34,140 nucleotides of DNA from a virus (IMGVR_UViG_3300000385_000016:1-34140); one strand, 5' to 3'; counted from the stretch's first letter, positions 7,720-34,140 are shown. Numbers and translations: made by a program. The notes: a model not told the origin generated them from the sequence alone.

Positions 7720-8838
7720 ATGTCGCTTAGAATAAGAAGAGGTTTAAGCACCGATATACCTACCCCTGTTGAAGGCGAGTTATTATATACCACCGACGAA
7801 GGTAAATTATATGTAGGATACAACGATCCTATAGAGGGAGAAGTAATACCTAAATTAACGGGTGCTAGACTAACAGACGATGATACTCCTACACTATCGG
7901 CAGATCTAAATCTAGCAGGAAATAACATAGTTGGAACCGGTAATATTAATATAGACGGTACTATAAATGCTACTGGTAATATTAATTTAGGCGACGAAGA
8001 TAGCGACACAATTAATATAAACGGGCAAATCAATACATCATTAATTCCTACATCGACAAATTTGTATGACTTAGGTGATATTACAGCAAGATGGAGAAAT
8101 GGATATTTTCAATCTCTTATAGCAAATAGTTACATAGAATCTTCCGACTTTGTTGTAGGTAATTCTATTGTATCTAGTGATAGCACCGTTATCTATGATA
8201 ATTTATCTAACAGTATCAACATAGAATCAATCACTGCAAATATCGTAGAAGGCAATTTGATAGGAAATGTCTATAATGAAAATTCTAGTTTAATTATAGA
8301 TAACGAAGAGGGTTCATTTAATACTCCGTCTCTAAAGATTATCGATGAAAAAATCGAAAGTAAAATTTCTGAGCCGTTAAGAGTTTTTTCCGATAAAGGT
8401 TTAAGGAATTTTGGTTCTTCCTCTCAGTCTATAACAGACTCAAACGCATTTGTGCTTAATTCAATAGGCGATAGTGATACTAGTCCTTTAGCAATTGGAG
8501 ATATAGTAGGAGCATTTGCTTACAGCGGCTATGACGGCTCCGATTATATACCAACAAATGTAATACTCTCTGAAGTTGATTCCGATGCAAGCGGTTCTAT
8601 ACTACCTGGAAAGTTAGTCGTTTATTCTGCAGATGTTACAGGCAGTTTGAATCCTACAATGACCATAGATTCTGCGGGAACAATAAGTGGAGGCATTTTC
8701 AAAACCGGCACCTATAACAACACAACAGAAAGAGATAATCAAATACCTAATCCAGAAGCAGGAATGATTATCTTTCTAAACGATGTATCTCCAAAATTTC
8801 AAGGGTATGACGGAACACAGTGGGTTGATTTTAATTAG
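7720..8838 (+). CDS. Phage fibre / adhesin-like structural protein
   Basis: The 372-residue protein starts MSLRIRRGLSTDIPTPVEGE followed by LLYTTDEGKLYVG, the N-terminal module common in phage fibre and tropism proteins. Residues 60-230 consist of short repeating Asn/Gly/Ile/Ser-rich strands (NIVGTGNINIDG, ATGNINLGDED, TININGQIN), as expected for a beta-helical or trimeric fibre shaft. The C terminus (GMIIFLNDVSPKFQGYDGTQ) resembles a small receptor-side or capping domain. A late-type promoter and TAGGAG precede it. It is the last gene of the core block, and its stop overlaps the oppositely oriented oxygenase by 4 bp. No chaperone or protease domain is visible. Confidence 0.75.
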   Translation: MSLRIRRGLSTDIPTPVEGELLYTTDEGKLYVGYNDPIEGEVIPKLTGARLTDDDTPTLSADLNLAGNNIVGTGNINIDGTINATGNINLGDEDSDTININGQINTSLIPTSTNLYDLGDITARWRNGYFQSLIANSYIESSDFVVGNSIVSSDSTVIYDNLSNSINIESITANIVEGNLIGNVYNENSSLIIDNEEGSFNTPSLKIIDEKIESKISEPLRVFSDKGLRNFGSSSQSITDSNAFVLNSIGDSDTSPLAIGDIVGAFAYSGYDGSDYIPTNVILSEVDSDASGSILPGKLVVYSADVTGSLNPTMTIDSAGTISGGIFKTGTYNNTTERDNQIPNPEAGMIIFLNDVSPKFQGYDGTQWVDFN

Positions 8839-9650
8839 TAAGATTGTAGATTATCAATTCCTAGTGTCTTTCTAAAACTTTCTGTAAAAACACAATCTAT
8901 ACGAACACCATATTCCTGCTCTTTAGAAGATTCTCCGCCGTGCCAGTCTTGATCGTTCCAGAAGGCAGCATGACAATTTAGATAATACTTATTTTGTTCG
9001 TCAGGATCCCATATATAGAATCCTCTTTTGGTTCTAGGCCTAATATGTATAAATTCATTTCTATGGTTAGAATAATAGTCATTTTCAAAAACACCATTTT
9101 TCGCATCTAAATCTCTATGTTCAAATGCCTTACCATTATGATCGCAATGAAAGATAATGACACGACCGATCTGTTCTATAATATCATTTTCTATAAGATT
9201 ATATACCCACTGAACTAGTCCAGGAAAATATTTGGATTCTTCAGTTGGCTTTCTTTTAGCATTTCGTTCATTCCAGTCGCCTTCTTCCCATATAAAATAA
9301 TAAACATATGGATCGTTAGCACCTAATGTAGTTTTTAAATATCTTGTAAAGATATTTCTTTGTTTATAATCGCCAAAATCCTCAGGTAAAATTTTATCAC
9401 CTTCAATCTTGATAGGATTATCATCTGGTAAATCTTGGTATTCTTCCCAAGCCTTATAGATAGGCTTCCAGTCTAAAATGTAACTCGCGTGTTTCCATTC
9501 AAATCCAGGTTTCATCCAAGTTCCTTCTTTTGCATAATCTCTAGCAAGAGCCATGCCTTTAGAAATTTCGGGATGTAAATTTTTAAAACCTTCGATGTCT
9601 AAAAAAGGATCTAAGTTTAGATATTTTTGTCCGCCTATTCCTCTTATCAT
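8835..9650 (-). CDS. Predicted Fe(II)/2-oxoglutarate-dependent oxygenase
   Basis: The 271-residue product carries a double-stranded beta-helix metal triad. H178-x-D180 sits in AFEHRDLDA and the distal H237 in QDWHGG. An Arg suited to 2-oxoglutarate binding lies 13 residues later (R250 in YGVRIDCVF). FIHIRPRTKRGF resembles the R-x-H strand of aspartyl-hydroxylase-like enzymes. Such enzymes hydroxylate or desaturate protein side chains or small molecules. The minus-strand start has a good ribosome site (TTAGGAG) and a late-type octamer. It sits beside the fibre gene in opposite orientation. The substrate is unknown. Confidence 0.72.
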   Translation of the reverse strand: MIRGIGGQKYLNLDPFLDIEGFKNLHPEISKGMALARDYAKEGTWMKPGFEWKHASYILDWKPIYKAWEEYQDLPDDNPIKIEGDKILPEDFGDYKQRNIFTRYLKTTLGANDPYVYYFIWEEGDWNERNAKRKPTEESKYFPGLVQWVYNLIENDIIEQIGRVIIFHCDHNGKAFEHRDLDAKNGVFENDYYSNHRNEFIHIRPRTKRGFYIWDPDEQNKYYLNCHAAFWNDQDWHGGESSKEQEYGVRIDCVFTESFRKTLGIDNLQSY

Positions 9651-9672
9651 TCAAAACTCCTAATCTTAAAAA

Positions 9673-9693: not shown

Positions 9694-10389
9694 ATGTCTA
9701 ATGGCTTTGAATATTATTATAATAATGTTCCCGGAAAGGGTCTGTGTAGAAACAATTTGATATACACAAGTTTGATTAGCAAAGACAGAAAAACATTTTG
9801 TCAATGGTATTACAATGACAAAACTTATCACAGTGGGATGAATAAGGTTGTTGACCCTACCCTTATGTTGGAAAAATGGCAGAGAGAAAAACATTATCTT
9901 TTGCTAATGCATGAAAACTTCCCCCAGCACATTCCTGAAATTTTAGATATCGATGATAAAAATCAAAAAATTTATTTAAGAATAGACGGAGATGATTTTT
10001 GGGAAAGAGCAAAAACAGACATAAACAGATACAACGACGTTCTTCCTAATTGGGAAGAACAGATGCTAGAAATAATAGAAAGTCATAAAAAATTAAATTT
10101 CTATAAAATTTCTATGCACCCTTCTAGTTATTTTGTAGTAGACGGAAAATTAAAAAGTATTAATTATTTTTTTTGTTATAATTTCAGTGAAGAGACGATA
10201 AGATTTTCAGATGTTTTTAGTCACATAAGCGACGACAGATTAGAAAAACTTTATCCTCTCATGAAAAAAATGAATATTGATTATAATAACCAAGAACCCT
10301 TAGAAAAAATACAGAATTTAGCATTTGAGACATTTAAATTTAATTTTCCTCATAGCACTATGGAAAAAGCAAAGAGAATCTATGTTTAG
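9694..10389 (+). CDS. Truncated kinase-like (phosphotransferase-fold) protein
   Basis: The 231-residue protein looks like a reduced kinase-like fold. It has an ATP-lobe-like start, a helix with MLEKWQREKHYLLLM, then HIPEILDIDDKNQKIYLRID and a catalytic-loop-like KISMHPSSYFVVDGKLKSI. A paralogue on the minus strand at 12061-12732 shares ILEID-x-K-x-KKI-x-x-R-x-DGD and KISMH. In true kinases the loop would read HxD...N and DFG/IDF. Here the acidic residues are partly replaced (INYFFCY), so activity is doubtful. No Shine-Dalgarno is visible. The next gene overlaps by 8 nt. I have seen this family only in marine phages. The function is unknown. Confidence 0.55.
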   Translation: MSNGFEYYYNNVPGKGLCRNNLIYTSLISKDRKTFCQWYYNDKTYHSGMNKVVDPTLMLEKWQREKHYLLLMHENFPQHIPEILDIDDKNQKIYLRIDGDDFWERAKTDINRYNDVLPNWEEQMLEIIESHKKLNFYKISMHPSSYFVVDGKLKSINYFFCYNFSEETIRFSDVFSHISDDRLEKLYPLMKKMNIDYNNQEPLEKIQNLAFETFKFNFPHSTMEKAKRIYV

Positions 10390-10948
10390 TATTAAAGAAT
10401 GGAATCCAGATTTGGATTTATCTTTTTTTTACAAAGAATGCAAAAAAAGAGGGCACATTAATAACTCCTCAAAAAAACAAATGATAGATTGTTTCAAAAA
10501 TGAAAAACACTGGAATGTTTGGATTTTGTATCACTATAACACCCCTATAGGCAGCGTAGCAGCACACTCATTCGACGATGTTATGGGAGAGAATTCATAT
10601 AGAATTTTGACTAGAACGTGTGCTTTATCAAAATATGCGCCTATTACAGGCTTATTAACCAAAAATAAAATGATATTAGAACACCAACACTTTACGGCGC
10701 AATTTTTTTTAGAAACTTGCGTTAAATGGTGCAAATCAGACAGATTATATTCTACATCGAACTATAGCGATTGCGCAAGTCAAAAAATTGTGAATAGACT
10801 TTATTTTCCTACACTTGCAAAAAAAAATTTAGTAGAATTTGTTAAAACACAGAATTATAGAGGACTACCACAAAACATTTGGAAAATAAATCATGAAGCT
10901 TTTTTGGCAGATCTTAATCGTTATCCGCGATGGAAATTAAATAATTAA
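10382..10948 (+). CDS. GNAT-like acyltransferase-fold protein
   Basis: The ATG at 10382 overlaps the previous stop by 8 nt and gives 188 residues. The section HWNVWILYHYNTPIGSVAAH resembles the central strand-loop-strand of GNAT acyltransferases. SYRILTRTCALSKY and HFTAQFFLETCVKW follow as strand and helix, and the end is NIWKINHEAFLADL. The acyl-CoA pyrophosphate-binding Q/R-x-x-G-x-G/A loop is not clear, so enzyme activity is not certain. It is paired with the kinase-like gene in a two-gene plus-strand block whose end overlaps the SDR gene on the other strand by 35 bp. GNAT fold is my best reading and unknown function is the fallback. Confidence 0.5.
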   Translation: MFSIKEWNPDLDLSFFYKECKKRGHINNSSKKQMIDCFKNEKHWNVWILYHYNTPIGSVAAHSFDDVMGENSYRILTRTCALSKYAPITGLLTKNKMILEHQHFTAQFFLETCVKWCKSDRLYSTSNYSDCASQKIVNRLYFPTLAKKNLVEFVKTQNYRGLPQNIWKINHEAFLADLNRYPRWKLNN

Positions 10949-11528
10949 CTTTTTCGCATTTTTTGTCTAAATCTTTGTCTTTACCTCCTAAAGATTCAAT
11001 AACAAACGAAGTAAGTTTTAAATTAAATTCTACATTCCAAAAATAAGGATTAGATAACCAAATATCAATGATTGATACTATGGATTCTAAGGGTATTTCT
11101 TCGTCCGAATTATATCTATCGTCTCCTATTGTTGACTTAATAAAAGAAAAGTCAAGGTATAATATTTTTGCTACATTATATTGGGTAGGAATAGAAGATA
11201 GTAAATTGCAAAATTCATAAAGTTCTGATTTGATAAATGATAATTCAGGTTTTATATTTGTGTAATTCCGTATTACGCCTCCTGATACAATTATAAATGA
11301 AACATGTTTATAAATCTTCTCTAAAATTTCTTTCTGATATTCTTTATAACATAGATTATTAAAAACAATATCAGCATCTTTGCAAATTGAAACTATCTCA
11401 TCGAAATTGCGTTCTATATCATAACCACGAGTTCTAGAAATACCAATAACTTCAAAATTTTGATTAACGAAATAATCTTTTACTGCCTTCCCTATACCGA
11501 AAGTGTCTCCTATAACCACTGCCTTCAT
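10914..11528 (-). CDS. Short-chain dehydrogenase/reductase-like protein
   Basis: The ATG at 11528 overlaps the upstream stop (ATGA) and gives 204 residues. The start MKAVVIGDTFGIGKAV is a Rossmann nucleotide-binding turn of the SDR type (G-x-x-x-G-I-G). ADIVFNN is the usual second NAD(P) strand region and FIIVSGG matches the strand bearing the catalytic Ser. The expected Y-x-x-x-K is not in its standard place: around PELSFIKSEL the Tyr is missing, while a YNVAK occurs later at 117-121. The protein is therefore either divergent or catalytically altered. It is the last gene of a four-gene minus-strand block with two oxygenases and a kinase-like protein. The substrate is unknown. Confidence 0.65.
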   Translation of the reverse strand: MKAVVIGDTFGIGKAVKDYFVNQNFEVIGISRTRGYDIERNFDEIVSICKDADIVFNNLCYKEYQKEILEKIYKHVSFIIVSGGVIRNYTNIKPELSFIKSELYEFCNLLSSIPTQYNVAKILYLDFSFIKSTIGDDRYNSDEEIPLESIVSIIDIWLSNPYFWNVEFNLKLTSFVIESLGGKDKDLDKKCEKVNYLISIADND

Positions 11529-12073
11529 AGCTTTACACCTAAGCAATGATAAAGGAAAAAGGGCTGCAAACCACAATTTGCTGCAGAATGATAATTTCTA
11601 TAATCTTTCCACTTAACGATTGTTCCTATGTCGCAAGCAGAGACATCTTTACCTTCTAACGCTAAAAAATGAGATAAATTTTTTTCGCCTAGAAAAATAG
11701 AATATCTCATTAATTTACCTTCTTGGAGCCATTGTTCATGCTTATCGTCAACGTCCCAATGCCAAGGTGCTGTTTTACCTGGCATAATTAAACTCACCCA
11801 GTCTCTTTTCGGATTTATATTTACATATTCGGCAAATTGATTTGTAAATTGAGCATTATAATGTTCATTTGGGTAATAGTTATACCACTCTATGCTGGAT
11901 AAAAAATATCCTGCGTTTATCCAATTATCGATCATTTCTTGATAGTAATTTTTAATTTTGGTATTTTTAGATTTTGAAGCATCTAGTATAGAATTGAAAT
12001 CTAAACGCTTAGGCTGAGTTTTTTGACATTCACCAACAAGATCTTTGCATTTTTTTCTAATTATTTTATACAT
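11525..12073 (-). CDS. Predicted Fe(II)/2-oxoglutarate oxygenase-like protein, possibly altered active site
   Basis: I prefer the ATG at 12073 (182 aa, 13-nt overlap with the upstream gene). An ATG at 12118 would add 15 residues inside that gene. The beta-helix core shows H105-x-D107 in APWHWDVDD and a distal H162 in RNYHSAANCG. SIFLGEKNLSHFLALEGKDV and DIGTIVKWKDY match strands of the oxygenase at 26007-26504. The usual 2-oxoglutarate-binding Arg after the distal His is not evident (LQPFFLYHCL instead), so cofactor use may differ. The stop overlaps the SDR start (ATGA). It is probably a hydroxylase of unknown substrate. Confidence 0.65.
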   Translation of the reverse strand: MYKIIRKKCKDLVGECQKTQPKRLDFNSILDASKSKNTKIKNYYQEMIDNWINAGYFLSSIEWYNYYPNEHYNAQFTNQFAEYVNINPKRDWVSLIMPGKTAPWHWDVDDKHEQWLQEGKLMRYSIFLGEKNLSHFLALEGKDVSACDIGTIVKWKDYRNYHSAANCGLQPFFLYHCLGVKL

Positions 12074-12732
12074 GATTCCAAATCGTCCAATTTCAAATTT
12101 AGTTTTTGGTTGTGCCATTTATCATTTAACAATAAAAATTTATAGATTTCAAAAAAGTTATAATTGTTGCGTTCACTAAAAGGTTCTGTACAAATCCATT
12201 TTTTACTATCTTGCGAAAGTATCTCATCTACTATTGTTTTGTTGACCAATGGCGTATTAAGACCAAAACAACTAAAAAAGTCTATAGTTTTTATTACATT
12301 ATTTCTGTTTTCAAAAAAACAATGTGAATGCATAGAAATTTTTCCTAAGCCAATTCGATATAAATCAGACAAGACATTTTGTGCTTTGTTCATGAAGTAA
12401 ACCTGCTTTTCTGGTTGATGATATATAACATGATTGATTAAATCTCCATCGTAGCGAATGAAAATCTTTTTTGATTTTTTATCGATTTCTAAAATATCTG
12501 GACACCACTGATAGTTTCTCAATTTGTCTAAGTAATACAATTCATTTTCAAAAAAATAATCAAGAGTTTTTTGACTTAAATTATTTTTTGAATAGGCATT
12601 CTTTTTACAAAAGTGATAACAAAATATTTTGTTATCCGGACTTATTAATGGCTCGTAAGTGTGTTGCGATACGCAACTCCTTCCTTGATTATCCAGTTTG
12701 TATAGATATTTCCAATTTTTAACAGATATCAA
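12061..12732 (-). CDS. Truncated kinase-like protein, paralogue of 9694-10389
   Basis: The product has 223 residues. It shares with the plus-strand paralogue the order FFENELYYLDKL, CPDILEIDKKSKKIFIRYDG and GLGKISMHSHCFFE, then VIKTIDFFSCFG. In this copy the IDF segment keeps the Asp that is Asn in the other copy, so it is closer to a working kinase-type catalytic loop. It overlaps its upstream gene by 14 nt and its downstream gene by 13 nt. Low GC and long A/T runs are evident. A phosphotransferase role is a fold-level guess, with unknown function as the alternative. Confidence 0.5.
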   Translation of the reverse strand: MISVKNWKYLYKLDNQGRSCVSQHTYEPLISPDNKIFCYHFCKKNAYSKNNLSQKTLDYFFENELYYLDKLRNYQWCPDILEIDKKSKKIFIRYDGDLINHVIYHQPEKQVYFMNKAQNVLSDLYRIGLGKISMHSHCFFENRNNVIKTIDFFSCFGLNTPLVNKTIVDEILSQDSKKWICTEPFSERNNYNFFEIYKFLLLNDKWHNQKLNLKLDDLESCIK

Positions 12733-13381
12733 TTTTAAATTCTCTAGGTGTAATATACTCTAAATCAATCAAATTATTTTCTTCGAGTTCAAAACTACAA
12801 CCTTTTTCTTCGATCTTGAAATTAGTTAATAGCCCTTTTTTGTTAGCATAATTTAACCAAGAACTAAGGGTATTATCAAATTTATATCTAGGATTAGAAC
12901 CAGCTAAACGTATTTTAACGGTTTTTGATTTGTTAAGTTGATTATTTTGTAAAAGTTTTCTTACGACTAGTTGATATCTAGAAGTTTCACCGCAAGAAAT
13001 AGCTGTATGAACTTTACTCGTATCCATTTCATACCAGATAGCATCTGCATAAGTAGGATATATTACATTATCATCTAGGTCTAATAAGTACCCTCCGTCG
13101 CCTGCAAGATTAATATGAAATCTATCATCTATGTCTGCATGTTGTGTGTAACAACGCATTGATTCAAGAATTATCAGTCGTGCTTCGCCTATCGGAAAAT
13201 CTAATGTCGAAAGTATGTTACCTAACGGAGTATCTTTGACTTCTTCTTTTAAAGACCACTCGTCGTAAAAAAAATTTCCAGTAGGGAAATTGAGCACATT
13301 TTTCATTTGGTCGAAATGGTAAATTTGTGACTGAGAATCCTCTAGGAGTTTTTTATCTATAGAATGCAACGGTGCTAGCAT
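12719..13381 (-). CDS. Aspartyl/asparaginyl beta-hydroxylase-like Fe(II)/2OG oxygenase
   Basis: The 220-residue protein has the clearest oxygenase motifs of the set. H81-x-D83 and R87-x-H89 lie in TQHADIDDRFHINLAG, W116 in ADAIWYEMD, the distal H125 in KVHTAISCG, and R135 in TSRYQLVVR. This H-x-D...R-x-H...H-T-A...R order is typical of aspartyl/asparaginyl beta-hydroxylase-like enzymes, which hydroxylate protein side chains. The C-terminal 75 residues form an extra domain I do not recognise. It is the first gene of the minus-strand block and divergent from the QueC-like gene. The target could be a phage or host protein or a small molecule. Confidence 0.75.
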   Translation of the reverse strand: MLAPLHSIDKKLLEDSQSQIYHFDQMKNVLNFPTGNFFYDEWSLKEEVKDTPLGNILSTLDFPIGEARLIILESMRCYTQHADIDDRFHINLAGDGGYLLDLDDNVIYPTYADAIWYEMDTSKVHTAISCGETSRYQLVVRKLLQNNQLNKSKTVKIRLAGSNPRYKFDNTLSSWLNYANKKGLLTNFKIEEKGCSFELEENNLIDLEYITPREFKIDIC

Positions 13382-13434
13382 CAGATATTTACCAAGATCT
13401 ATAACTTACATATAATTTATTGGTAAGTAATTTT
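13382..13434. promoter_or_regulatory. Divergent intergenic region with a 7-bp inverted repeat
   Basis: This 53-bp A/T-rich gap separates the starts of the minus-strand oxygenase block and the plus-strand QueC/radical SAM block. TTACCAA (13389-13395) and TTGGTAA (13420-13426) form an inverted repeat that brackets TATAAT (13411-13416). No convincing -35 element or ribosome site is seen for either gene. A shared regulatory site is possible but unproven. Confidence 0.35.
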
Positions 13435-14172
13435 ATGCAACCTTATAACCTACTTGAAGTAGATGGTGTAAAAATACCTTTTTCACATAATTGGACTAAC
13501 ATAGGAATAAGTTTAAGTGGCGGAGCAGATAGTGCATTACTGCTATATATCCTAAGTAATTATTTTACATGCAACATACACGTTATCACCCAAATAAGAT
13601 GTTGGAAAACAAGACCCTGGCAAGAATACCATAGTTTACAAGTTTTTGAGTGGTTTCAAACTAATTTTCCAAAAAAAAATTTTACAAGGCATGAAGGTTT
13701 CATTCCGCCCGACTTAGAATGGGGGAGAATCGGACCTACAATAACGGATGAGTACGGAAAACTAAAAAGCGGAAATCAAATTATATTGCGATCCCATAAC
13801 GAGTATATCTGTCACAAAGAAAAAATCAACGCATGGTTTGCAGCAGTTAATCGTAACCCTAATATTAAATTAGACGGAGCCTTAAAAGACAGAGACGATG
13901 GACACATACTTCCCATTTTTAATCATATGAACACGGTTATTTGCCATCCGTTTATTAAAACACGAAAGGATTGGATTATACAACAATATTATAATTTTGA
14001 TATTTTAGATCTGTTAGATCTAACAAGAAGTTGCGAAGGAGATAAAATCGACTATCCTGAAATTTTTGGTGATTTAGACTTTACTACTTATATTCCAGGA
14101 CAATATGTGCCTGAGTGCGGAAAATGTTTCTGGTGCAATGAACGTGAATGGGCATTGAATCGTGTTAAATAA
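13435..14172 (+). CDS. QueC-like PP-loop ATPase
   Basis: The ATG at 13435 gives 245 residues. An upstream in-frame TTG at 13420 is unlikely. The ATP-pyrophosphatase P-loop is SLSGGADSA (SGGADS at 28-33). Four cysteines near the end, C200 and C228/C231/C234 in ECGKCFWC, reproduce the zinc-site spacing of QueC, which makes 7-cyano-7-deazaguanine (preQ0) from the QueE product. A queE end lies in this window, but 13 kb away. This gene is instead coupled by 11 nt to a radical SAM gene, and the middle of the protein differs from standard QueC. It could be a true QueC or a PP-loop enzyme adenylating another carboxylate or amide. Confidence 0.7.
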   Translation: MQPYNLLEVDGVKIPFSHNWTNIGISLSGGADSALLLYILSNYFTCNIHVITQIRCWKTRPWQEYHSLQVFEWFQTNFPKKNFTRHEGFIPPDLEWGRIGPTITDEYGKLKSGNQIILRSHNEYICHKEKINAWFAAVNRNPNIKLDGALKDRDDGHILPIFNHMNTVICHPFIKTRKDWIIQQYYNFDILDLLDLTRSCEGDKIDYPEIFGDLDFTTYIPGQYVPECGKCFWCNEREWALNRVK

Positions 14173-15433
14173 TAAATCTTGCACATTTTGTATGCATCCC
14201 TTTACTGGTCTAGCAACTAGAGAAGATGGTGCTATTAAAATCTGTTGCAGAAGTCAACCAGTAGGATGGATACAAGAACAAAGTCTTGAAGAAGTCTGGA
14301 ACTCCGACAAAATGAAGGAAGTTCGCAAGCAAGTTCTCAATGGTAAACGTCCTGATGTTTGTATGCCCTGCTTTAATCTTGAAGATCAGGGTGTAGAGAG
14401 CTTACGACAGCGTCATATACGCGGTTTAATACCAGAAGCCAGGGTTAACCTTTATCCTGATGCTTTAGACGCGCTAGAAGACGATTATTCCATGCCTTTT
14501 GAATTTCCAACTATGGAGATTAAGATTAACAATCTGTGTAATCTTAAATGTCGCATGTGTAACCCTTTGGATTCTACTTCATGGACGGATTGGAAAGAAG
14601 TAGAAGAATTTTACGAAAGAGAAAACAACTACCTTGTTCCTACCGTTAGAAAACTTACAAAAAGACCAGGACAATATATCGGACCATTTGACAATTCCGA
14701 TAATTGGTGGCAAGATTTTGAAAAACTTCTACCTCACTTTCGCAGAGTAGAGTTTGCAGGAGGGGAGCCCCTAATGGATCCTAACCACTACAAAATTCTA
14801 GACATGCTTAAACCACACGCAGATAAAATTGAAATCAAATATGCCACTAACGGAACAAAACTCGGCATATCAGATGGCAGGACTATATTTGACTATTGGC
14901 CTTACTTTAAGTCTGTTGCTGTAAATATAAGCATTGACGGTATACATGATGTCTATGAATACATAAGAGGTAATGGCGATTTTTCACTAATAGAAGAAAA
15001 TATAAAACAAATTAAAACTTTACCTAACATCTCAAGAATTGTAGGTGCTTTTACGGTCCAATCTAACAACATCATGCAAATTGATAAAGTAATAGAATAC
15101 TTTTTAGAAGATATGGGTATAATCTTTTATAGTCATAGAGTAAACTATCCTAGAGCTTTGTCTGCACAGGTTCTTCCTCAGAAACTAAAGGCAGATATCA
15201 TAGGCAAATTAGAAAAAATGAACAACAAGATAGAAAAGTTTACTTTGATTAAATCTAATCCTACAATTAAAAAAGTGACTTTACAGCAAATAAAAGACAA
15301 TATAAACTTTTTACAAGCCGAAGATCTTAGCCAATACTGGAAAGAATGCCTAGAATTTAATCGAAAATTAGATTTCAGTCGAAAGCAAGGTCCTATAGAA
15401 AAAATTATTCCTGAATTTAAACCATATGTATAA
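14162..15433 (+). CDS. Radical SAM protein with N-terminal twitch-like domain (copy 1)
   Basis: The GTG at 14162 overlaps the PP-loop gene by 11 nt and gives 423 residues. The N-terminal 75 residues hold C7/C10, C28/C29 and C67/C70, the arrangement of an auxiliary-cluster twitch domain placed before the core. The radical SAM site is CNLKCRMC (C126, C130, C133), and SAM-binding GGEP lies at 200-203, with YATNGT and SIDGI strands after it. The protein would bind one core [4Fe-4S] cluster and probably an auxiliary one, cleaving SAM for radical chemistry on an unknown substrate. It pairs with 15426-16310 (8-nt overlap). A mirror-image pair lies at 16294-18698. Confidence 0.88.
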   Translation: MLNNKSCTFCMHPFTGLATREDGAIKICCRSQPVGWIQEQSLEEVWNSDKMKEVRKQVLNGKRPDVCMPCFNLEDQGVESLRQRHIRGLIPEARVNLYPDALDALEDDYSMPFEFPTMEIKINNLCNLKCRMCNPLDSTSWTDWKEVEEFYERENNYLVPTVRKLTKRPGQYIGPFDNSDNWWQDFEKLLPHFRRVEFAGGEPLMDPNHYKILDMLKPHADKIEIKYATNGTKLGISDGRTIFDYWPYFKSVAVNISIDGIHDVYEYIRGNGDFSLIEENIKQIKTLPNISRIVGAFTVQSNNIMQIDKVIEYFLEDMGIIFYSHRVNYPRALSAQVLPQKLKADIIGKLEKMNNKIEKFTLIKSNPTIKKVTLQQIKDNINFLQAEDLSQYWKECLEFNRKLDFSRKQGPIEKIIPEFKPYV

Positions 15434-24117: not shown

Positions 24118-24240
24118 TTAAGTTTTTTATTTTTTTGAGACTATAGATTGTATAGTTCTTGTCCTAATTTTTCTTCTGCCCATCCGTGATATATTTTCAA
24201 AGTCATAATTTTTTCTATATCTTTAGGATATATATTTACA
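24011..24240. other. Longest non-coding stretch: divergent region between two blocks
   Basis: These 230 bases separate divergent starts at 24010 and 24241 and are T-rich on the plus strand. They hold the dehydrogenase ribosome site (AAAGGA on the minus strand, 24022-24017) and a possible gene-tail remnant. A second short minus-strand frame ends at 24141. No sigma70 or clean late-type promoter is convincing. An AGGA about 13 bases before the ATG at 24241 is a poor ribosome site. Confidence 0.4.
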
Positions 24241-26010: not shown

Positions 26011-26504
26011 CTATAAAAACCGGAAAGCTAGAAAATATATACTGGAACGACAGTTTTAAAAGTTTCGATTACATAAAGCAACCTGTAAGTGAAGAAGAAA
26101 TCACAAAGTGGAGAGAAGCAGGATATAATCATAAAAGCTTCACCGGAGAAATGTATGATAGTAAAAACCCAATGCCGGACTACGCTGATAAAATTGCTAA
26201 GGACTTGGGATTAAAAAATTGCGGTTTTGTTTTTTACAGAATGAATACTAATGACATAATGCCTACGCATGTAGATCACTTTTCTCGTTACTGTGAAATT
26301 TTTAACGTTGACAGATATGATGTATTTAGAGCGGTAGTTTTTTTAGAAGATTGGAAAATAGGACATTATTTTGACATAGGAAATAGGGCAATAATGAATT
26401 ATACCGCAGGTGAATGGATCATGTGGAGCTGTGACGAACCTCACTTTGCAGCTAACATAGGAACAGAGCCTAGATATACTCTGCAAATTACAGGAATTTT
26501 GTAA
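26007..26504 (+). CDS. Predicted Fe(II)/2-oxoglutarate oxygenase (small)
   Basis: The 165-residue protein has H88-x-D90 in MPTHVDHFSRY, the distal H146 in DEPHFAANIG, and R156 in EPRYTLQITG, a complete Fe and 2-oxoglutarate set in a beta-helix frame. FRAVVFLEDWKIGHYFDIGN and MNYTAGEWIMWS match strands of the protein at 11525-12073, so the two are related. It overlaps the amidinotransferase by 4 nt, and its stop shares a base with the next start (TAATG). Hydroxylation of a guanidino compound, a sugar or a protein residue would all fit. The substrate is not known. Confidence 0.75.
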   Translation: MTIKTGKLENIYWNDSFKSFDYIKQPVSEEEITKWREAGYNHKSFTGEMYDSKNPMPDYADKIAKDLGLKNCGFVFYRMNTNDIMPTHVDHFSRYCEIFNVDRYDVFRAVVFLEDWKIGHYFDIGNRAIMNYTAGEWIMWSCDEPHFAANIGTEPRYTLQITGIL

Positions 26505-27685: not shown

Positions 27686-28829
27686 AAATCCATACATCGA
27701 CTCGTGCGAAAGTTCTACATTTTCAGTATTATTTGATTACTTTAATTGGCGCGACGATATACAATTAATACATGGGCTAATGAAATATCCTGAATGGAAG
27801 CCTAATGTAAATATCCTTAATTTTATAAAAAATCTAGAAGAGCTAAGATACAATGCCAATTGTTATTTTGTTTTTGATGCTTCTACAGAAGGATTTTCAC
27901 CTTTCAAAAACTTCTTCTTTCATAACCTATACGAATCATGTAGATTACATAATATTAAGCCTAACAAGATTATATTTGTTTCAACAAATATGAAAGATTT
28001 AACCAATATTGAAAGATATAATAAAGAAAATAGAATACAAGAAAGTATAAGAGTTTTTCCTTTCTTAAGTTTCAAAAAAATGATTCAAGATTTGATAGAG
28101 GACAATTACGGCTTTAATTTTAACAGCAATTCTGCATTTGAATATTTCAAATCTGAATGTGACAGAAAATTTAGCGGAGATTTTGGATTAAGTTTAAGCA
28201 GAGTAAATCGATCACATAGAACTCTTGCTCATTATCTTCTACACTCTACCAACCTAGACAGACATTTTAAATTAAGTCAAGATAGAATTTCTGAAGATGA
28301 CATAAGATACACTGCACAACATTATTTGCTTGATAAAAATTTTTTAAAATGGTGTTCTACTCTACCAAAGGTTGTCGACACAGAAGATTTTGAAACTAAT
28401 CATGCTTTATCTATTAATAGTCATCTTCACAATTCAACTCTATTTCAGATTGTAAATGAAACTCACGTAAAAAACTGGCAAAATACGAGTTTATTTTATT
28501 CAGAAAAAACATTTAGATCCATGGCTCACATGCAACCGTTCCTGATATTTGGACAGCCAGGCTGTAATAGAAAATTAGAACAATTAGGTTTTAGACTTTT
28601 TAGAGAAGATTTTGATTACTCCTTTGATGATATTCAAGACACAAAAAAACGTTACCTTGCAATAATAGATACTATTAGACAGGTAGTTAAACAACTGAAC
28701 GAGATGAATAGAGACGAACAAATAAAATGGAGATTTAGGAGAGAAGAAACACTCAAACACAATTTTGATTTAGTAATGGACATTAACTATTTTAGACAGG
28801 ATTTTGAAAAACTGATAGAGGCATTATGA
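27675..28829 (+). CDS. Large phage protein with GT-B-like C-terminal motif (copy 2)
   Basis: The 384-residue protein opens MIIKNPYIDSCESSTFSVLF, and its C-terminal part has IVNETHVKNWQNTSLFYSEK followed by TFRSMAHMQPFLIFGQPG and LEQLGFRLFREDFDYSFDD, matching the preceding gene in order and spacing. The N-terminal halves differ, with a short Rossmann-like CYFVFDASTEGFSPF and KIIFVSTNMKDL here. A glycosyltransferase-like role is inferred only from the conserved tail. The start overlaps copy 1 by 11 nt and the stop overlaps the SGNH gene (ATGA). No membrane segment is seen. Confidence 0.55.
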   Translation: MIIKNPYIDSCESSTFSVLFDYFNWRDDIQLIHGLMKYPEWKPNVNILNFIKNLEELRYNANCYFVFDASTEGFSPFKNFFFHNLYESCRLHNIKPNKIIFVSTNMKDLTNIERYNKENRIQESIRVFPFLSFKKMIQDLIEDNYGFNFNSNSAFEYFKSECDRKFSGDFGLSLSRVNRSHRTLAHYLLHSTNLDRHFKLSQDRISEDDIRYTAQHYLLDKNFLKWCSTLPKVVDTEDFETNHALSINSHLHNSTLFQIVNETHVKNWQNTSLFYSEKTFRSMAHMQPFLIFGQPGCNRKLEQLGFRLFREDFDYSFDDIQDTKKRYLAIIDTIRQVVKQLNEMNRDEQIKWRFRREETLKHNFDLVMDINYFRQDFEKLIEAL

Positions 28830-29671
28830 AAAGATACAAAAGATTTTTTGCTTTCGGATGTTCTTTTACTCATTATAAATGGGCGACATGGGCGAATATT
28901 CTAGCATACGAATTAGATTGCGAATTTTTTAATTTGGGGAAAAGCGGTGCAGGGAACAGTTTTATCGCTAATCAAATTTCTCAAGCGGATGCATATTTCA
29001 ATTTTACACAAGAAGATTTAGTTGTAGTAAGTTGGACTAATATCTCACGCGAGGATAGATATAGAGACACAGGATGGATCACGCCAGGTAATATTTACTC
29101 GCAACATGATTATGATGAAAACTTTGTCTCTAATTACGCAAACGATACCCATTTTGCATTGCGAGATTTTTCTTACATTCATTTTGTAAAAAACCTGTTA
29201 GAAAGTAAAACCAACTGGCATTTTTTACAAATGTGTAACATAGTTAATGTAATTAATCAATGGGAATCAAACAGAAGATCGAACTCTGACATCAAAAATA
29301 TTTCAGACTTATATACTGATTCTTTACAACACATTGTTCCGAGTTTTTATGATGTTTTATGGAGAGGAAACATTGATAATAAATGGAAAAGTGATTGGAG
29401 AGAAATACACCCGAACTATTCTGACGGACATCCTACACCATTAGAGCATTTGCAATATCTAGAAAGAACAATCATGCCCAACATATCAGAAAAAACAAAA
29501 CAAGCTGTATATTCTTTACAAGAACAATGGCGAGATTATATTCGAGAAGGATATAAAAACACTTCTATAGATTGCGGGCTACACGACATGCCAAACAATT
29601 GGGTAGATAAAATGCATAATTTATTTAGACTGAGGGAAGAAAAGCCTATTCCCAGTGTGCTGTATCATTGA
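28826..29671 (+). CDS. SGNH/GDSL-type hydrolase-like protein
   Basis: The 281-residue protein has block I AFGCSFTHYKWATW (S13), block II FFNLGKSGAGNSF, a block III-like VVSWTNISRED with the oxyanion Asn, and block V SDGHPTPLEHLQYL with D-x-H. All four SGNH blocks are present, so it is likely active, unlike the remnant at 24825. A C-terminal extension of about 70 residues follows (KQAVYSLQEQWRDYIREGY). It may de- or trans-acylate a sugar made by the same operon. Its stop overlaps that of a minus-strand radical SAM gene by 7 bp. Confidence 0.7.
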   Translation: MKRYKRFFAFGCSFTHYKWATWANILAYELDCEFFNLGKSGAGNSFIANQISQADAYFNFTQEDLVVVSWTNISREDRYRDTGWITPGNIYSQHDYDENFVSNYANDTHFALRDFSYIHFVKNLLESKTNWHFLQMCNIVNVINQWESNRRSNSDIKNISDLYTDSLQHIVPSFYDVLWRGNIDNKWKSDWREIHPNYSDGHPTPLEHLQYLERTIMPNISEKTKQAVYSLQEQWRDYIREGYKNTSIDCGLHDMPNNWVDKMHNLFRLREEKPIPSVLYH

Positions 29672-31041
29672 CTCTGGCACAAGTCCCAAAAACTTTGCAT
29701 TTCTGGAAATGTGTCAGTAAAATTTGAATTTCTTCTTCTATCGTGCTCGGAAAACCAAGCATAAAAGTTTTTTCTTGCTACTATTAACTTATCTTCTTCA
29801 TAAAAAGTAGATGCCATGTAATCAACTACTCTTTTGAACTTTTCATACTCTAGATCTGTGAATTTAGTTCTATCACTATTGTCTTGATTGCGTTTTATAA
29901 AATCTAAATGAGAATACATATAGAGCATGTATTCTTCTTTCGGTAGAATATTCATGTCAAATATAGTAGGTTCTTTCAAATGAGGTGTATCAAAACGAAT
30001 TCTTTGCCATTGTGTTTCGTTTTTGTTCGAATTGTATCTTTCGCGCCATTCTAGTATCTTTTCTAGCAATAAATTAAAACTTGTAACGCAAAATATATTG
30101 AACGTAATCATAAATGTTACAGGCAATCCTGTATTTGAGAGATAATAGTCTAGATTACGCTCCCATAATTTGATATCTAGACCGTGACGAGCGTATTCTG
30201 CTCTTTCCCCCCAGGTATCAATTGAAGTATATAATTTAAAACTTTTAATTGCGTTTATAGAACGCAGATAACTGATCCTTTCTACTAGACGTTCTACGAG
30301 TTTGGGTTTGACCCCAAGATTTGAGTTAATTTCTATCTGTATATGCGGTTTCGGATCTTCCTCCAGTTTATCAAACAAATCCCATGTACTTTTATGCATC
30401 AAAGGCTCGCCGCCTGTTATTCGCAGTATGTTAAGAGTCTTTGAAACTTCGGGCCACCATTCCCACCATGCTTTTACATATGGATTTTCTTCTTCTCTGT
30501 GATAGACTTTGAACCAATCTATGTCCTGTCTATGATCTGTAGCAGTATCATAAGGTCCATGTTCGTCAATTTCTTTCCAATACCTAGAACTTGCTTTAGG
30601 ATGACAATAGCCACACTTGAAGTTACACTCATTTGAGAAAGAAATTTCAATATACTCCGGATTTACGTTGTATTCTGCACCGCCTTGTTTTATTTCTTCC
30701 AATCTTTCTGGTGTATATATTGAAGCAGTTTTGATATGACGATCGGAAACATAGTCTTTGCCCATTGCTTCTATTTTCCAGCAGTAGGAACATCCTGCAG
30801 GCTGCTGTCCTTTCATCATAAATTCTCGTTCCTGCTTTTTTTGACGAGTATTATGAAGTGCAGATGGGTTGTTTTCAAGTTCTTCCAACGGAATAGGATG
30901 CGGAGCAGGATGATAGCAAGAGTGAGTTTCGCCTGTTTGTAGATAAATCGTGGTATGATGCCACTTTGCCATACAGAAAGTAGGAGAAATTTCTCTATCT
31001 GTATGAGGAATAATCTGTTTTATCTCTTCAAGTTCGCTCAT
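29665..31041 (-). CDS. Radical SAM protein with N-terminal twitch-like domain (copy 3)
   Basis: The 458-residue product has N-terminal cysteines C23, C42, C84 and C87 (PTFCMAKWHHTTIYLQTG, CSYCWKIEAMGK), the core CNFKCGYC (C139, C143, C146), ITGGEPL (208-214) and IEINSNLG. It matches the twitch-first layout of the proteins at 14162 and 17289 but has no type B partner next to it. Instead it follows a run of glycosyltransferase-like genes on the minus strand (4-nt overlap). This may mean it acts on the same glycan. GC here is higher than in the adjoining plus-strand block. Confidence 0.87.
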   Translation of the reverse strand: MSELEEIKQIIPHTDREISPTFCMAKWHHTTIYLQTGETHSCYHPAPHPIPLEELENNPSALHNTRQKKQEREFMMKGQQPAGCSYCWKIEAMGKDYVSDRHIKTASIYTPERLEEIKQGGAEYNVNPEYIEISFSNECNFKCGYCHPKASSRYWKEIDEHGPYDTATDHRQDIDWFKVYHREEENPYVKAWWEWWPEVSKTLNILRITGGEPLMHKSTWDLFDKLEEDPKPHIQIEINSNLGVKPKLVERLVERISYLRSINAIKSFKLYTSIDTWGERAEYARHGLDIKLWERNLDYYLSNTGLPVTFMITFNIFCVTSFNLLLEKILEWRERYNSNKNETQWQRIRFDTPHLKEPTIFDMNILPKEEYMLYMYSHLDFIKRNQDNSDRTKFTDLEYEKFKRVVDYMASTFYEEDKLIVARKNFYAWFSEHDRRRNSNFTDTFPEMQSFWDLCQSQ

Positions 31042-31940
31042 TTCTGCCTTTTAATAATTCTTGGCGTGTTTCTATAGGTTGATTTGAAGAATCTACTTCC
31101 TGCTTCGTCTAATAGTGCAATCTCAATACCTAATTTGCTTGTAAGACCGTGTTCTAATTCGTTAACTTCTTCTATTACAGCATTTTCGTCTTTGGTTTTG
31201 TGATTGTCGTTCCAATATTCTGTAAGATACTCAAAATCTCTAACTTGTTTATATTCCCAGTCTGTGCAGTTTGTAAGATAACAGCCTTCTCTTGCTCCGT
31301 ATATGCTCCATAAACCATTTTCTACGTCTGCTCCTACAGAACACCATATTTTAAGACGTTCTAGATTTTGCCACCATACTGTTTTAATGTCATTGACAGG
31401 GGATCCTTGGTCAAGACTCATTTTTACACCTTCTCTAAATCCTGCTCTCCAGGCTTGAAAAGGAGATCCGTTCGTGTATGATGTGGAATAGTTGTCATTA
31501 AATTGATAATACTTGTCATCGAAACAGAATTCTACGAGAGATCGTTCGTCTGCGTCATTTGCTGCTTCGTGAGTTTTCATATTTTGAACAAAATCTTTGT
31601 TCCATAGTTTTAAACCGCCATTTCCATACATTAACCCATTTACATAGACTCGTCCGCACCAAGAAAAAACGTGATCGCGTGTTAATCCAAGCTCGTCAAT
31701 GTCAATAACTACGTTTAGAAATGATTGATCTACAATATTGTCCGCATCTACGGTTACAAAATAGTCTGTGTCCGAAATATCAGCACAGGCTTTGTGAGCA
31801 GCGTCAGATCCCTTTACACCGTGAACTCTTTTTGCCCACGGAATTTTTTGACATAGGTCAGCATAATTCTTTTCTGCGTTAGGTTCGTCAAAAGAAAGAA
31901 ATATCACATCCTGTTCTGCTACAACTATTTTGTTTGACAC
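31038..31940 (-). CDS. GT-A-like glycosyltransferase (DAD motif), long copy
   Basis: The 300-residue protein has FLSFDEPNAEKNYADL, AKRVHGVKGSDAAHKA, VTVDADNIVD (DAD at 65-67), MYGNGGLKLWNKD and FQAWRAGFREGVKMS, which follow the same order as the shorter paralogue at 21325-21999. Downstream of the shared part it has about 70 extra C-terminal residues. A metal-dependent GT-A transferase role is likely from the DAD motif and the context of two further glycosyltransferase-like genes upstream. It overlaps both neighbours (16 nt upstream, 4 nt downstream). Confidence 0.65.
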   Translation of the reverse strand: MSNKIVVAEQDVIFLSFDEPNAEKNYADLCQKIPWAKRVHGVKGSDAAHKACADISDTDYFVTVDADNIVDQSFLNVVIDIDELGLTRDHVFSWCGRVYVNGLMYGNGGLKLWNKDFVQNMKTHEAANDADERSLVEFCFDDKYYQFNDNYSTSYTNGSPFQAWRAGFREGVKMSLDQGSPVNDIKTVWWQNLERLKIWCSVGADVENGLWSIYGAREGCYLTNCTDWEYKQVRDFEYLTEYWNDNHKTKDENAVIEEVNELEHGLTSKLGIEIALLDEAGSRFFKSTYRNTPRIIKRQK

Positions 31941-32512
31941 TGGGTTATCCTTTGAAAGCTATATTTTTCGAACATTTTTGCTGTAAAAACGGAAATGTCC
32001 TGTATTTCTTCTTCAAATTTCATATCGAAAGGTACTACAGCATAGTTATCTCTTACTACTCGTGAAAAATCAACAGAAAGAGTTTTGTAAAGCACATTAG
32101 GATCGTGTTTTGCTGTGACGGAAAATGTAATTTCTCTGTTTAGTCGAACTCCCTGCTGTTTTAGGTTTTGATTAAGAGACTTTCCTAATAGAATCTTCCA
32201 ACAGGAATTTGGTATGTCCTGTAAAACCGTTATGTCAGCGTTGTCGTCGTTGTTTTCTGGTAATTCGTATATAAAGTCATTTACAGAAGCACCATCAAAC
32301 TGCATTTCATGAACATTTACAAGTGCCAGCTGTTTCTTTTTAGGATCATACTCTACTCTGTAGTTTCTTCGTCTTTCTTTTCCTTGTAGAATGCCTACAA
32401 CTTCTTCTAAATCAACAGCTATATCGTGATGATTCGCACTTGGTTTAGGAGATATTCCTATGATTTTGCCTGTGTCTTCTTCAAATCTCACATACATTAT
32501 GTCTGAAGACAT
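31925..32512 (-). CDS. Conserved phage hypothetical protein (195 aa)
   Basis: I choose ATG 32512 because AAGGAAG lies about nine bases before it. ATG 32497, which shares a base with the upstream stop, would shorten the protein by five residues. The sequence starts MSSDIMYVRFEEDTGKIIGI, then has VVGILQGKERRRNYRVEYDP and a beta-rich body (KILLGKSLNQNLKQQGVRLN, ITFSVTAKHDPNVLY). The pattern suggests a structural or assembly protein of T4-like marine phages rather than an enzyme, and no catalytic motif is visible. Its place between glycosyltransferase-like genes is unexplained. Confidence 0.6.
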   Translation of the reverse strand: MSSDIMYVRFEEDTGKIIGISPKPSANHHDIAVDLEEVVGILQGKERRRNYRVEYDPKKKQLALVNVHEMQFDGASVNDFIYELPENNDDNADITVLQDIPNSCWKILLGKSLNQNLKQQGVRLNREITFSVTAKHDPNVLYKTLSVDFSRVVRDNYAVVPFDMKFEEEIQDISVFTAKMFEKYSFQRITQCQTK

Positions 32513-33327
32513 TTTTCAAACTTCCTTATCTTGTCTTCTGTTACAAAATCGTTTTCTGTATAATGAAATACACCGTTTTGATGAAAATTTCCAATTTTTA
32601 GCGTTGCTTGTTCTGTAAGATACACACCTACTTTATCCTGCCAGCGGGAAGTTGGCATTTTCCAGTTCTGTATTTGTGATTTCATATGAATAACGGAAAC
32701 AATGTCGCTTGTTTGGTTGGATATTTCTGTGTCGCAATCCGTAATTTTAGCAGCAATTGCTGTAGTGATGTCCATTGACGGTTCTTTAGGGTAGAAATTC
32801 GAACAGAAATGCCCGTAAAACAATTCCCAGTTGTTAGATATTAATTCTACCCATTCAAAAAACTGTTTTGCTTTGTTGGATTTTTTAAAATAGTGCAAGC
32901 AGTTGTAGAAGTTTGGTAAATCATTAGCAGTAAATGCTTTTCTGTAATAATCAGACTCTACAAGTTCTTGTCTATACGTAAAAACTCTTGTAGGAAAATA
33001 TACTTCGTAATTTTTTAATAGATTCCAAGCATAATTTAAATTTTGTAACACAAGAACATCAGAATCTATAACGATAGTTTCATCATAGGGCGTTGCGTGA
33101 TAGATTTTCCATCTATTTTGAGTTTTTAATCTGGTTTCGTCCGATTTATACCACGGAATTTCTACGATCTTATCAAAAACGTGTGTGTATTGCTGGGGGA
33201 TAGTGTTATTTGTTATTATACTAACGGGTAAATCGTTGCCAGATGCCTTCAAACTTAAAGCAGCAAGGTAAGATTGCTGTATATATTCTTCTCCGTCGGC
33301 AAAAACGCAGTATCCTTTGCTATTCAT
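32497..33327 (-). CDS. GT8-like glycosyltransferase
   Basis: The ATG at 33327 overlaps the previous stop (ATGA) and follows AGGTG. An in-frame GTG three codons earlier is less likely. The 276-residue protein has YCVFADGEEYIQQSYLAALS, a strand LPVSIITNN, and the metal-binding D-x-D in DETIVIDSDVLVL. NFYNCLHYFKKSNKAKQFFE follows. The layout corresponds to GT-A fold family 8-like transferases. It shares the HATPYDET...DSD region with its upstream neighbour (ASPYDET...DSD), so the two are tandem paralogues. The donor sugar and acceptor are unknown. Confidence 0.7.
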   Translation of the reverse strand: MNSKGYCVFADGEEYIQQSYLAALSLKASGNDLPVSIITNNTIPQQYTHVFDKIVEIPWYKSDETRLKTQNRWKIYHATPYDETIVIDSDVLVLQNLNYAWNLLKNYEVYFPTRVFTYRQELVESDYYRKAFTANDLPNFYNCLHYFKKSNKAKQFFEWVELISNNWELFYGHFCSNFYPKEPSMDITTAIAAKITDCDTEISNQTSDIVSVIHMKSQIQNWKMPTSRWQDKVGVYLTEQATLKIGNFHQNGVFHYTENDFVTEDKIRKFEKCLQT

Positions 33328-34140
33328 ACAATACACCTATTTAAACTAAACTTGTTCATACAGTGTAAATTAGAATTTTTTAGAGATAATAGTGTGTATT
33401 CGCCTGTATATTTGGGCTTTTCAAGCAAAATTGTTAATTTTTCTCTGTCAATATCCCATAAAATGCTTTTATCTGTGATGTAATAGAGTTTTCCAGGCAT
33501 TGATTTTGCAAAATCTCCTTGTTCATAGCCGTTCATAATGTGAATTGCTATAGAAAATGCATAATCATTGCGAAAATACGGGGTGTTAATCTGAAAAATT
33601 GAGCAATAATGATTCCAATTTTCCTGTATGTGCGCTACTAAATCAAAAAATATGCGGTTTTGCTCCGTTTTTCTAAAGAAAACAGCGGTTGCCCAGTAAA
33701 AATCTACGGAAGTTTCCGAAACTCTTTCAAAAACATCGCCTCTATCCAAGTCTAAAAGATCTACACAGTCTTTATAAACAAGAAAATCGTGCGATTGCTC
33801 AAAACATTTCTTCCAAAATCCATTAGAAATTACAACATCACTGTCTAATAGCAGTGTTTCGTCATAAGGAGATGCTCGAAAAGCAGTTGATCGTAGGTTG
33901 TTTTTCCAATCCAACTTTTTTTCTACTAGAGTTCCGTCGTAAAATTTCTTAACAGCGTGATTTTCTGACGGAGAATATACTGTGTTTTCTTTTAGATCTT
34001 TTTCTTTCCATACAACAGAAATTACTTGATCAAAAACAGATTCGTAATCAGGATATTCGTGTTCGAGATAAGATAGGCTATCTGTAACTATTGACGTAGG
34101 AAGATCAAGATATTTGCGCACTCTCTTAGCAAGAAAATAG
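33324..34140 (-). CDS. GT8-like glycosyltransferase, N terminus outside the window
   Basis: The frame stays open to the window edge (codons to 34139 read YFLAKRVRK), and the family normally has 20-30 more residues before this, so the true start is outside. The GTG at 34121 is internal. Visible parts are DLPTSIVTDSLSYL, FRASPYDETLLLDSDVVIS with D-x-D, and FYWATAVFFRKTEQNRIFFD. It is a paralogue of the next gene downstream, with which it overlaps by 4 nt. The last 40 residues (WDIDREKLTILLEKPKY) lie beyond the shared part. It is probably a nucleotide-sugar-dependent transferase. Confidence 0.68.
   Translation of the reverse strand, partial: YFLAKRVRKYLDLPTSIVTDSLSYLEHEYPDYESVFDQVISVVWKEKDLKENTVYSPSENHAVKKFYDGTLVEKKLDWKNNLRSTAFRASPYDETLLLDSDVVISNGFWKKCFEQSHDFLVYKDCVDLLDLDRGDVFERVSETSVDFYWATAVFFRKTEQNRIFFDLVAHIQENWNHYCSIFQINTPYFRNDYAFSIAIHIMNGYEQGDFAKSMPGKLYYITDKSILWDIDREKLTILLEKPKYTGEYTLLSLKNSNLHCMNKFSLNRCIV

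Follow-up and report, generated by a model that had tools for sequence, protein, structure and literature searches.

The window analysed here is a 34,140-nucleotide stretch of viral DNA (IMGVR_UViG_3300000385_000016:1-34140), most of which is occupied by a conserved, tail-adjacent island of 30 genes between 8835 and 34121 encoding radical S-adenosylmethionine (SAM) proteins, 2-oxoglutarate (2OG) oxygenase-type proteins and putative sugar-handling enzymes. The genes lie head to tail or overlap (25,374 coding bases in 25,287), and the widest intergenic gap, 230 bases at 24011-24240, is likely a divergent promoter. The G+C content of the island is 0.332, against 0.418 on its left. No convincing transmembrane protein was found within it, and no room is left between its genes. 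An initial annotation of the window had proposed a candidate undescribed modification system at this site. The features, in window coordinates, are as follows (GT, glycosyltransferase; SDR, short-chain dehydrogenase/reductase; PLP, pyridoxal 5'-phosphate):

7720-8838, plus strand: tail-fibre-like protein, the island's left border (PF18454 Mtd_N)
8835-9650, minus strand: 2OGa, Fe(II)/2OG oxygenase and the module's core anchor (invariant ligand residues, AlphaFold model)
9694-10389, plus strand: KINa, protein-kinase-fold protein, predicted pseudokinase (profile match to kinase TTK)
10325-10948, plus strand: conserved protein, GNAT-like by eye only (kept in 2OGa loci)
10914-11576, minus strand: SDR-like NAD(P)-binding protein (weak PF00106/PF02826)
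11525-12118, minus strand: 2OGb, 2OG-oxygenase-like (alignment: HWD..H, without the conserved Arg)
12061-12732, minus strand: KINb, KINa paralogue (26% identity to 9694+)
12719-13381, minus strand: 2OGc, beta-hydroxylase-type 2OG oxygenase (7v4f, E 2.8e-15; alignment)
13420-14172, plus strand: QueC/ExsB-like PP-loop ATPase (motifs; phrog_1550, E 1.8e-6)
14162-15433, plus strand: rS1, N-twitch radical SAM (PF04055, PF13186; NF033640, E 1e-97)
15426-16310, plus strand: rS2, short radical SAM with a C-terminal Cys cluster motif (PF04055)
16294-17292, minus strand: rS3, short radical SAM (PF04055)
17289-18698, minus strand: rS4, N-twitch radical SAM (PF04055; NF033640, E 5e-115)
18691-19287, minus strand: putative class I methyltransferase (weak Pfam/NCBIfam matches only)
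19277-20287, minus strand: rS5, short radical SAM (PF04055)
20265-21332, minus strand: rS6, radical SAM with SPASM-like C-terminal region (PF04055)
21325-21999, minus strand: GTa, GT-A fold glycosyltransferase-like (32% identity to 31038-, whose model has the fold)
22018-22794, minus strand: SGNH-hydrolase-like protein (GCSHTEG motif by eye; kept in 14 other contigs)
22787-24010, minus strand: UDP-glucose 6-dehydrogenase (PF00984/PF03721; phrog_9148, E 3e-93)
24241-24828, plus strand: mini-DegT PLP enzyme, 195 aa (PF01041; invariant PLP residues)
24825-25055, plus strand: SGNH hydrolase remnant (alignment to an intact 215-aa relative)
25042-26010, plus strand: StrB1-like amidinotransferase (1bwd, E 2.3e-80; invariant catalytic residues)
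26007-26504, plus strand: 2OGd, 2OG oxygenase-like (HxD..H..R in 5/5 aligned sequences)
26504-27685, plus strand: GTx, putative glycosyltransferase-like (paralogue of 27675; relatives in 18 contigs)
27675-28829, plus strand: GTy, putative glycosyltransferase-like (paralogue of 26504)
28826-29671, plus strand: SGNH-hydrolase-like protein (FGCSFTH motif by eye; relatives in 16 contigs)
29665-31041, minus strand: rS7, N-twitch radical SAM, the most widely conserved (PF04055; NF033640, E 4e-94; 60-88% identity)
31038-31940, minus strand: GTb, GT-A fold glycosyltransferase-like (pLDDT 88 model, structural matches)
31925-32512, minus strand: conserved small protein, always between GT genes (13 aligned relatives, 27-69% identity)
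32497-33336, minus strand: GT8-like glycosyltransferase (PF11051 above cut-off; phrog_1903)
33324-34121, minus strand: GT8-like glycosyltransferase paralogue (26% identity to 32497-)

The seven full-length radical SAM proteins of the initial annotation were all recovered; each scores above the Pfam PF04055 cut-off and retains an intact CxxxCxxC motif. Against the model NF033640 ('twitch domain-containing radical SAM', N_Twi_rSAM), which has a curated cut-off of 170 bits, the products at 14162, 17289 and 29665 scored 328, 385 and 316 bits, respectively, and the remaining four fell below it. Pairwise identity among the seven is mostly just 19-26% over the longer alignments; across contigs, rS2 is 57-80% identical. 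When 194 radical SAM proteins from 18 contigs were grouped at 45% identity, 15 orthologous groups were present in three or more contigs, with at most one copy per contig, although some of these contigs are closely related to one another and the group counts are not wholly independent. Whole records hold up to 25 radical SAM genes. Because the groups are single-copy in each phage, their members are taken to be distinct pathway steps; amplification of one radical SAM gene was ruled out, the groups being both single-copy and mutually divergent. The intact island enzymes show strong purifying selection: dN/dS, the ratio of nonsynonymous to synonymous substitution rates, is 0.03-0.09 for conserved members, the same range as for replication genes, with dS near saturation. 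From the single-copy groups and low dN/dS we infer the signature of a multi-step pathway, rather than of amplification or drifting cargo.

Homologues of nearly all island proteins were found in contigs retrieved through the amidinotransferase. As this anchor biases the result, two independent anchors, 2OGa and rS2, were used, and these were profile-based because rS5 as an exact-peptide query of viral contigs had matched only its own near-identical contig. Viral contigs held 405 relatives of 2OGa and at least 538 of rS2, and neighbours were analysed for the best 80 of each; genes in other contigs were called with a simple open reading frame caller, some records are fragments, and co-occurrence more than 10 kb from an anchor is under-counted. 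Among the 49 dereplicated loci obtained for 2OGa, neighbours were KINa (98%), rS1 (94%), the 10325 protein (86%), 2OGc (84%), 2OGb (80%), the PP-loop protein (76%), the SDR and rS2 (73% each) and KINb (65%), and the order rS4 rS3 rS2 rS1 PP-loop 2OGc KINb 2OGb SDR 10325 KINa 2OGa recurred with strands conserved. Each rS2-anchored locus of 18 kb or more has between five and nine radical SAM genes (6.8 on average), and a methyltransferase of the 18691- type is present in 79% of the rS2-anchored loci. The density emphasized by the initial annotation proved to be beyond chance: in two records of 357 and 364 kb, the listed radical SAM genes fall within 18-23 kb (P <= 5e-6 under uniform placement). 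Rather than being carried singly and at random by related phages, the distribution named in that annotation as contrary to a common system, the genes keep together and keep their order in hundreds of contigs from uncultured phages. The fixed neighbours, order and single-copy groups thus ruled out a random build-up of accessory genes.

At the sensitivity of the scan, no confirmed relative of 2OGa was found in the genomes of 84,980 bacterial and archaeal species, and a bacterial origin of this protein was rejected on the same terms. For rS2, eight weak relatives were detected in such genomes, mainly in metagenome-assembled genomes (MAGs) of Bdellovibrionales; one sits among evidently chromosomal genes (HerA, a sigma-54 activator), and close to two there are family-2 glycosyltransferases. 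Family-2 glycosyltransferases adjoin the rS2, rS5, rS6 and methyltransferase relatives in the Bdellovibrionales MAGs. Phage-type islands also occur on MAG-filed contigs L263 (Gammaproteobacteria MED685), L266 (Rickettsiales MED657) and L264 (Bdellovibrionales SI034_bin15), with about 12 radical SAM genes in an unbroken run on L266; L263 and L266 look like phage contigs in bacterial bins. A nucleotide-level search of cultured phages returned nothing. Vibrio phages K566, K567, 6E35-1b and others (~250 kb) have radical SAM proteins distantly akin to rS1 (~25% identity).

That the cluster belongs to a single phage, as initially annotated, was borne out by a 79,180-base contig with 100% identical proteins, which spans the window from approximately 2149 onward and, further on, carries T4-like genes for tail, baseplate and portal. 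To the right of the island it encodes large fibre-like proteins, a 5,182-aa structural protein, baseplate gp6/gp25/gp5-type and gp46/47-type genes and the portal (names assigned by eye from translations); to the left lie the Mtd_N tail-fibre-like protein, a MoxR/DUF2201 pair and a 5'-3' exonuclease. The portal is nearest to those of the T4-related jumbo phages Phosso, PA5oct, Atu_ph07 and GAP32 (48-54% identity); the source is a T4-related jumbo phage of an aquatic family, and not an ordinary marine T4-like phage. Relatives of gp6 (48-65%) are present in 12 of the 18 island-bearing records, and in 11 of the 12 with both they lie ~20-35 kb from the radical SAM genes, across tail-fibre genes; the exception, at ~120 kb, is a record of 363,943 bases. 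In Phosso (L271:25415-26335) and Atu_ph07 (L273:15119-16009), radical SAM genes surround a protein of ~300 aa at the matching site beside a giant virion structural protein. This protein ends in CH[TS]SCHASCH[SN]SRSRR, and its Cys-His-x-Ser tail is kept although the bodies are only 38% identical; to judge by its sequence, the tail looks like a core of the ribosomally synthesized and post-translationally modified peptide (RiPP) type on a phage protein. PA5oct lacks this type of cluster.

Among the enzymes of the island, the predicted amidinotransferase and aminotransferase held up well. The amidinotransferase has StrB1 as its top solved relative, other structures matching at ~1e-47 or weaker, and C312, H206, D208 and D158 are invariant in the alignment; its full-length profile match, catalytic Cys and His-x-Asp are those of the inosamine-phosphate/arginine amidinotransferases and confirm the assignment as StrB1-like. 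The mini-DegT, about half the usual length, retains the PLP lysine K108 and the aspartate D84 in 17/17 relatives and is kept in 17 other contigs and in Synechococcus phage S-SCSM2R. The two genes are near neighbours in mapped contigs, usually no more than two genes apart. Between them in the window, the N- and C-terminal ends of an SGNH hydrolase have been fused by internal deletion (the relative in contig G002 is intact). The UDP-glucose dehydrogenase was likewise confirmed by profile. Of approximately six glycosyltransferase-like genes initially listed, 32497 (PF11051), 31038 and 21325 (fold) and 33324 (as a paralogue) were upheld, with 26504 and 27675, paralogous to one another, remaining GT-like by eye only; labels beyond the first three are by paralogy or eye. 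The GTb model matches GlyE, SunS, SpsA and others structurally, and a PDB search with a GTa/GTb profile gave nothing but two marginal ammonium-transporter matches. The 31925-32512 product, which accompanies the GT8a/GT8b/GTb/rS7 block in mapped contigs, is a candidate acceptor or adaptor.

The claim of four 2OG oxygenases stands less evenly. None of the four matched Pfam. HxD/E..H with a 2OG-binding arginine, which on a double-stranded beta-helix is the mark of Fe(II)/2OG oxygenases, occurs in the products at 8835, 12719 and 26007 (by motif), and is incomplete at 11525. In 2OGa, H178xD180..H237..R250 is invariant, and the best structural matches of its model are 2OG oxygenases (probability 1.00); a PDB profile search with 2OGa found no match. 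The 2OGc assignment is by profile match to the beta-hydroxylase structure 7v4f, and 2OGd keeps its motif in all five aligned sequences. 2OGb, also with no match in a PDB profile search, is the weakest of the four because it has no conserved Arg. Two of these 2OG-oxygenase-type proteins may thus be regarded as confirmed by profile or predicted fold, and two as putative, by motif.

The PP-loop protein carries SGGADS and four invariant QueC-like cysteines, as expected of the ATPase annotated there, but scores 15.6 bits against the cut-off of 22 bits for QueC (PF06508), and a PDB profile search found no match. For the annotated SDR (10914-) and methyltransferase (18691-), only weak matches were obtained. 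KINa matches kinase TTK (E 3e-4); the positions of the catalytic D, K and N and of the DFG aspartate carry invariant S140, H142, S145 and N157 instead, and it is predicted to be a pseudokinase. KINa and KINb are possibly scaffold or binding subunits. The 10325+ protein had no match in Pfam or, by profile, in the PDB.

Radical SAM gene clusters in phages have been noted before, and the initial suggestion of an undescribed system has to be narrowed in this respect. Campylobacter phages CP220 and CPt10 possess 11-12 radical SAM genes (Timms et al., 2010; PMC2853527), including a cassette of 10-12 genes, five of them for radical SAM proteins and one for an amidinotransferase, which was read as metabolic boosting (PMC2853527). 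As in the window, these are T4-like phages (NC_027997) in which radical SAM, amidinotransferase and GT-fold proteins cluster after baseplate genes and ahead of a tail-fibre gene. However, their amidinotransferase is 24-28% identical to that of the window, their radical SAM proteins give only 16-36 bits to those of the window and so are not orthologous, the 2OGa/KINa/PP-loop module is absent, and the cassette was presented as a metabolic module that can be exchanged and is probably dispensable. In pelagimyophages, radical SAM cassettes are mentioned in passing within the GT-containing host recognition cluster, which, like the island, is rich in glycosyltransferases and lies with tail fibres in the structural region (PMC7029224). 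That cluster is hypervariable and non-syntenic (PMC7029224), whereas the island has a syntenic single-copy core; it belongs to another phage lineage, the window phage being jumbo. In pelagimyophages it lies between VrlC and gp14; the island is flanked by the giant structural protein and the baseplate genes and, at its other end, by exonuclease/MoxR genes. The conserved module and its single-copy orthologues are absent from both accounts (PMC2853527, PMC7029224), and searches of open-licence papers found no other description.

Parts of the island have further parallels. In S-SCSM2R (PQ898602), a mini-DegT, a radical SAM protein, a 2OG enzyme, a StrB1-like amidinotransferase (60.5% identity) and glycosyltransferases adjoin; this is a sub-module only, and the genome has two radical SAM genes. 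The run, at L101:17293-20960, is near psbA/psbD, and this cultured cyanophage would be a tractable isolate for the sub-module. Streptomycin-type guanidinylation similarly pairs StrB1 with a DegT-family aminotransferase, as in the profile match and adjoining DegT enzyme of the island; unlike that system, the island has a DegT of half the usual length, no aminocyclitol synthase was seen in it, and its N-twitch radical SAM series has no counterpart there. A precedent for the target considered below is the glycosylation of mycobacteriophage virion proteins by phage glycosyltransferases (cited in PMC12619734), for which no radical SAM or 2OG tailoring is reported there.

Given these enzyme classes and their location, we tentatively favour, at somewhat short of even confidence, a conserved cytoplasmic pathway by which T4-related jumbo phages produce a guanidinylated sugar or glycan with heavy tailoring and couple it to an acceptor, most likely the proteins of the virion tail. 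The UDP-glucose dehydrogenase, SDR and mini-DegT would provide an oxidised amino-sugar or cyclitol, which the StrB1-like amidinotransferase would guanidinylate at its amine, in the manner of streptomycin biosynthesis. C-H oxidations, epimerisations or cross-links would follow one after another, introduced by the radical SAM series and the 2OG oxygenases; the QueC-like ATPase and the methyltransferase would presumably contribute additional tailoring, and the GT8-like and GT-A enzymes would pass the product to the acceptor. Given the location of the genes beside those for fibres and the lack of membrane export machinery, the likeliest acceptor would be a protein of the virion tail or fibres; the island encodes neither membrane nor export nor lipid-carrier proteins, which favours a cytoplasmic acceptor over autonomous assembly of a surface polysaccharide. 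The enzyme identities and the tail-adjacent position agree with the initial suggestion that an unusual sugar, or some other modification, is made, perhaps for the virion or for the surface of the host. A bolder version, in which this radical and oxidative line runs to over ten steps, includes one or more phage-only families (2OGa, at this sensitivity) and yields a new class of virion-attached guanidinylated, radically tailored glycan or glycan-peptide hybrid for host recognition, is possible but doubtful.

Several points weigh against the proposed glycan pathway. The acceptor is proposed from gene position only. Host machinery could take the place of the missing export proteins. Peptides are the substrates of most radical SAM/SPASM enzymes with known function. 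The 2OGa-centred half of the island is without a recognisable glycosyltransferase, and the amidinotransferase occurs in only 47% of the dereplicated 2OGa loci, though a flank of 10 kb would in many cases be too short to reach it.

The glycan could instead be destined for the host, with lipopolysaccharide or capsule being built or remodelled during infection so as to block superinfection or change adsorption, a role already proposed for the glycosyltransferases of pelagimyophage host recognition clusters. The type of location and GT content shared with the pelagimyophage host recognition cluster (PMC7029224), the UDP-glucose dehydrogenase and the family-2 glycosyltransferases adjoining chromosomal bacterial relatives are all consistent with this reading. 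It is nevertheless unlikely, as the island encodes no flippase, polymerase, transporter, lipid-carrier enzyme or membrane protein, and its very strong conservation is unusual for a function in a surface arms race.

Slightly less probable is a RiPP-like modification of proteins, in which radical SAM and 2OG enzymes would place cross-links, D-residues or hydroxylations on fibre proteins and the sugar genes would serve a separate function. The SPASM/twitch architecture, the beta-hydroxylase-type 2OG enzymes and the protein ending CHxSCHxSCHxSRSRR amid the radical SAM genes of cultured Phosso and Atu_ph07 argue for it, but the Phosso enzymes are not close homologues, no RiPP-maturase model attains its cut-off among the island radical SAM proteins, and the island leaves no gene space for a precursor peptide. 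Proteins flanking the island in its contigs are without CHxS or similar repeats; RiPP-type C-terminal Cys or HxS tails were searched for on the fibre proteins of island phages, and none was found.

Known phage DNA-modification pathways include QueC-like ATPases, 2OG enzymes and glycosyltransferases, and a modified base on the phage DNA may be considered in this light. Such hypermodification is improbable, given that the neighbours of the island are tail rather than replication genes and that the thymidylate synthase/hydroxymethylase family was found in just two of 10 records, which may be incomplete, and not in the 364-kb record with 10 radical SAM genes. A Tet_JBP search gave no match; its control was likewise silent, making it uninformative. 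The boosting of host metabolism by auxiliary metabolic genes, proposed for the Campylobacter phages in 2010 (PMC2853527), is very improbable: the UDP-glucose dehydrogenase aside, no central-metabolism reaction is recognisable, and at least 15 distinct single-copy orthologues in kept order argue for one dedicated product. Antiviral-type, viperin-like nucleotide chemistry is scarcely credible, as the PADLOC and NCBIfam matches are weak (best 52 bits, on the N-terminal radical SAM core of rS3), lie mainly on that core and are seen for six of the seven enzymes, with 47.8 bits against the cut-off of 180 for prokaryotic viperin (NF038283).

Phage radical SAM cassettes were thus noted in 2010 and 2020 without explanation, and GT islands near tail genes were known. 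With a fixed single-copy set whose order is kept in hundreds of environmental contigs or more, the curiosity becomes a defined, testable pathway. Genes such as ahbD, queC, prolyl-4-hydroxylase and ugd have been reported as viral auxiliary metabolic genes (PMC9301287), and these entries of auxiliary-gene surveys may partly belong to such islands. For jumbo phages related to T4, the pathway would add new radical SAM and 2OG chemistry and possibly a novel virion modification, for which cultured entry points exist.

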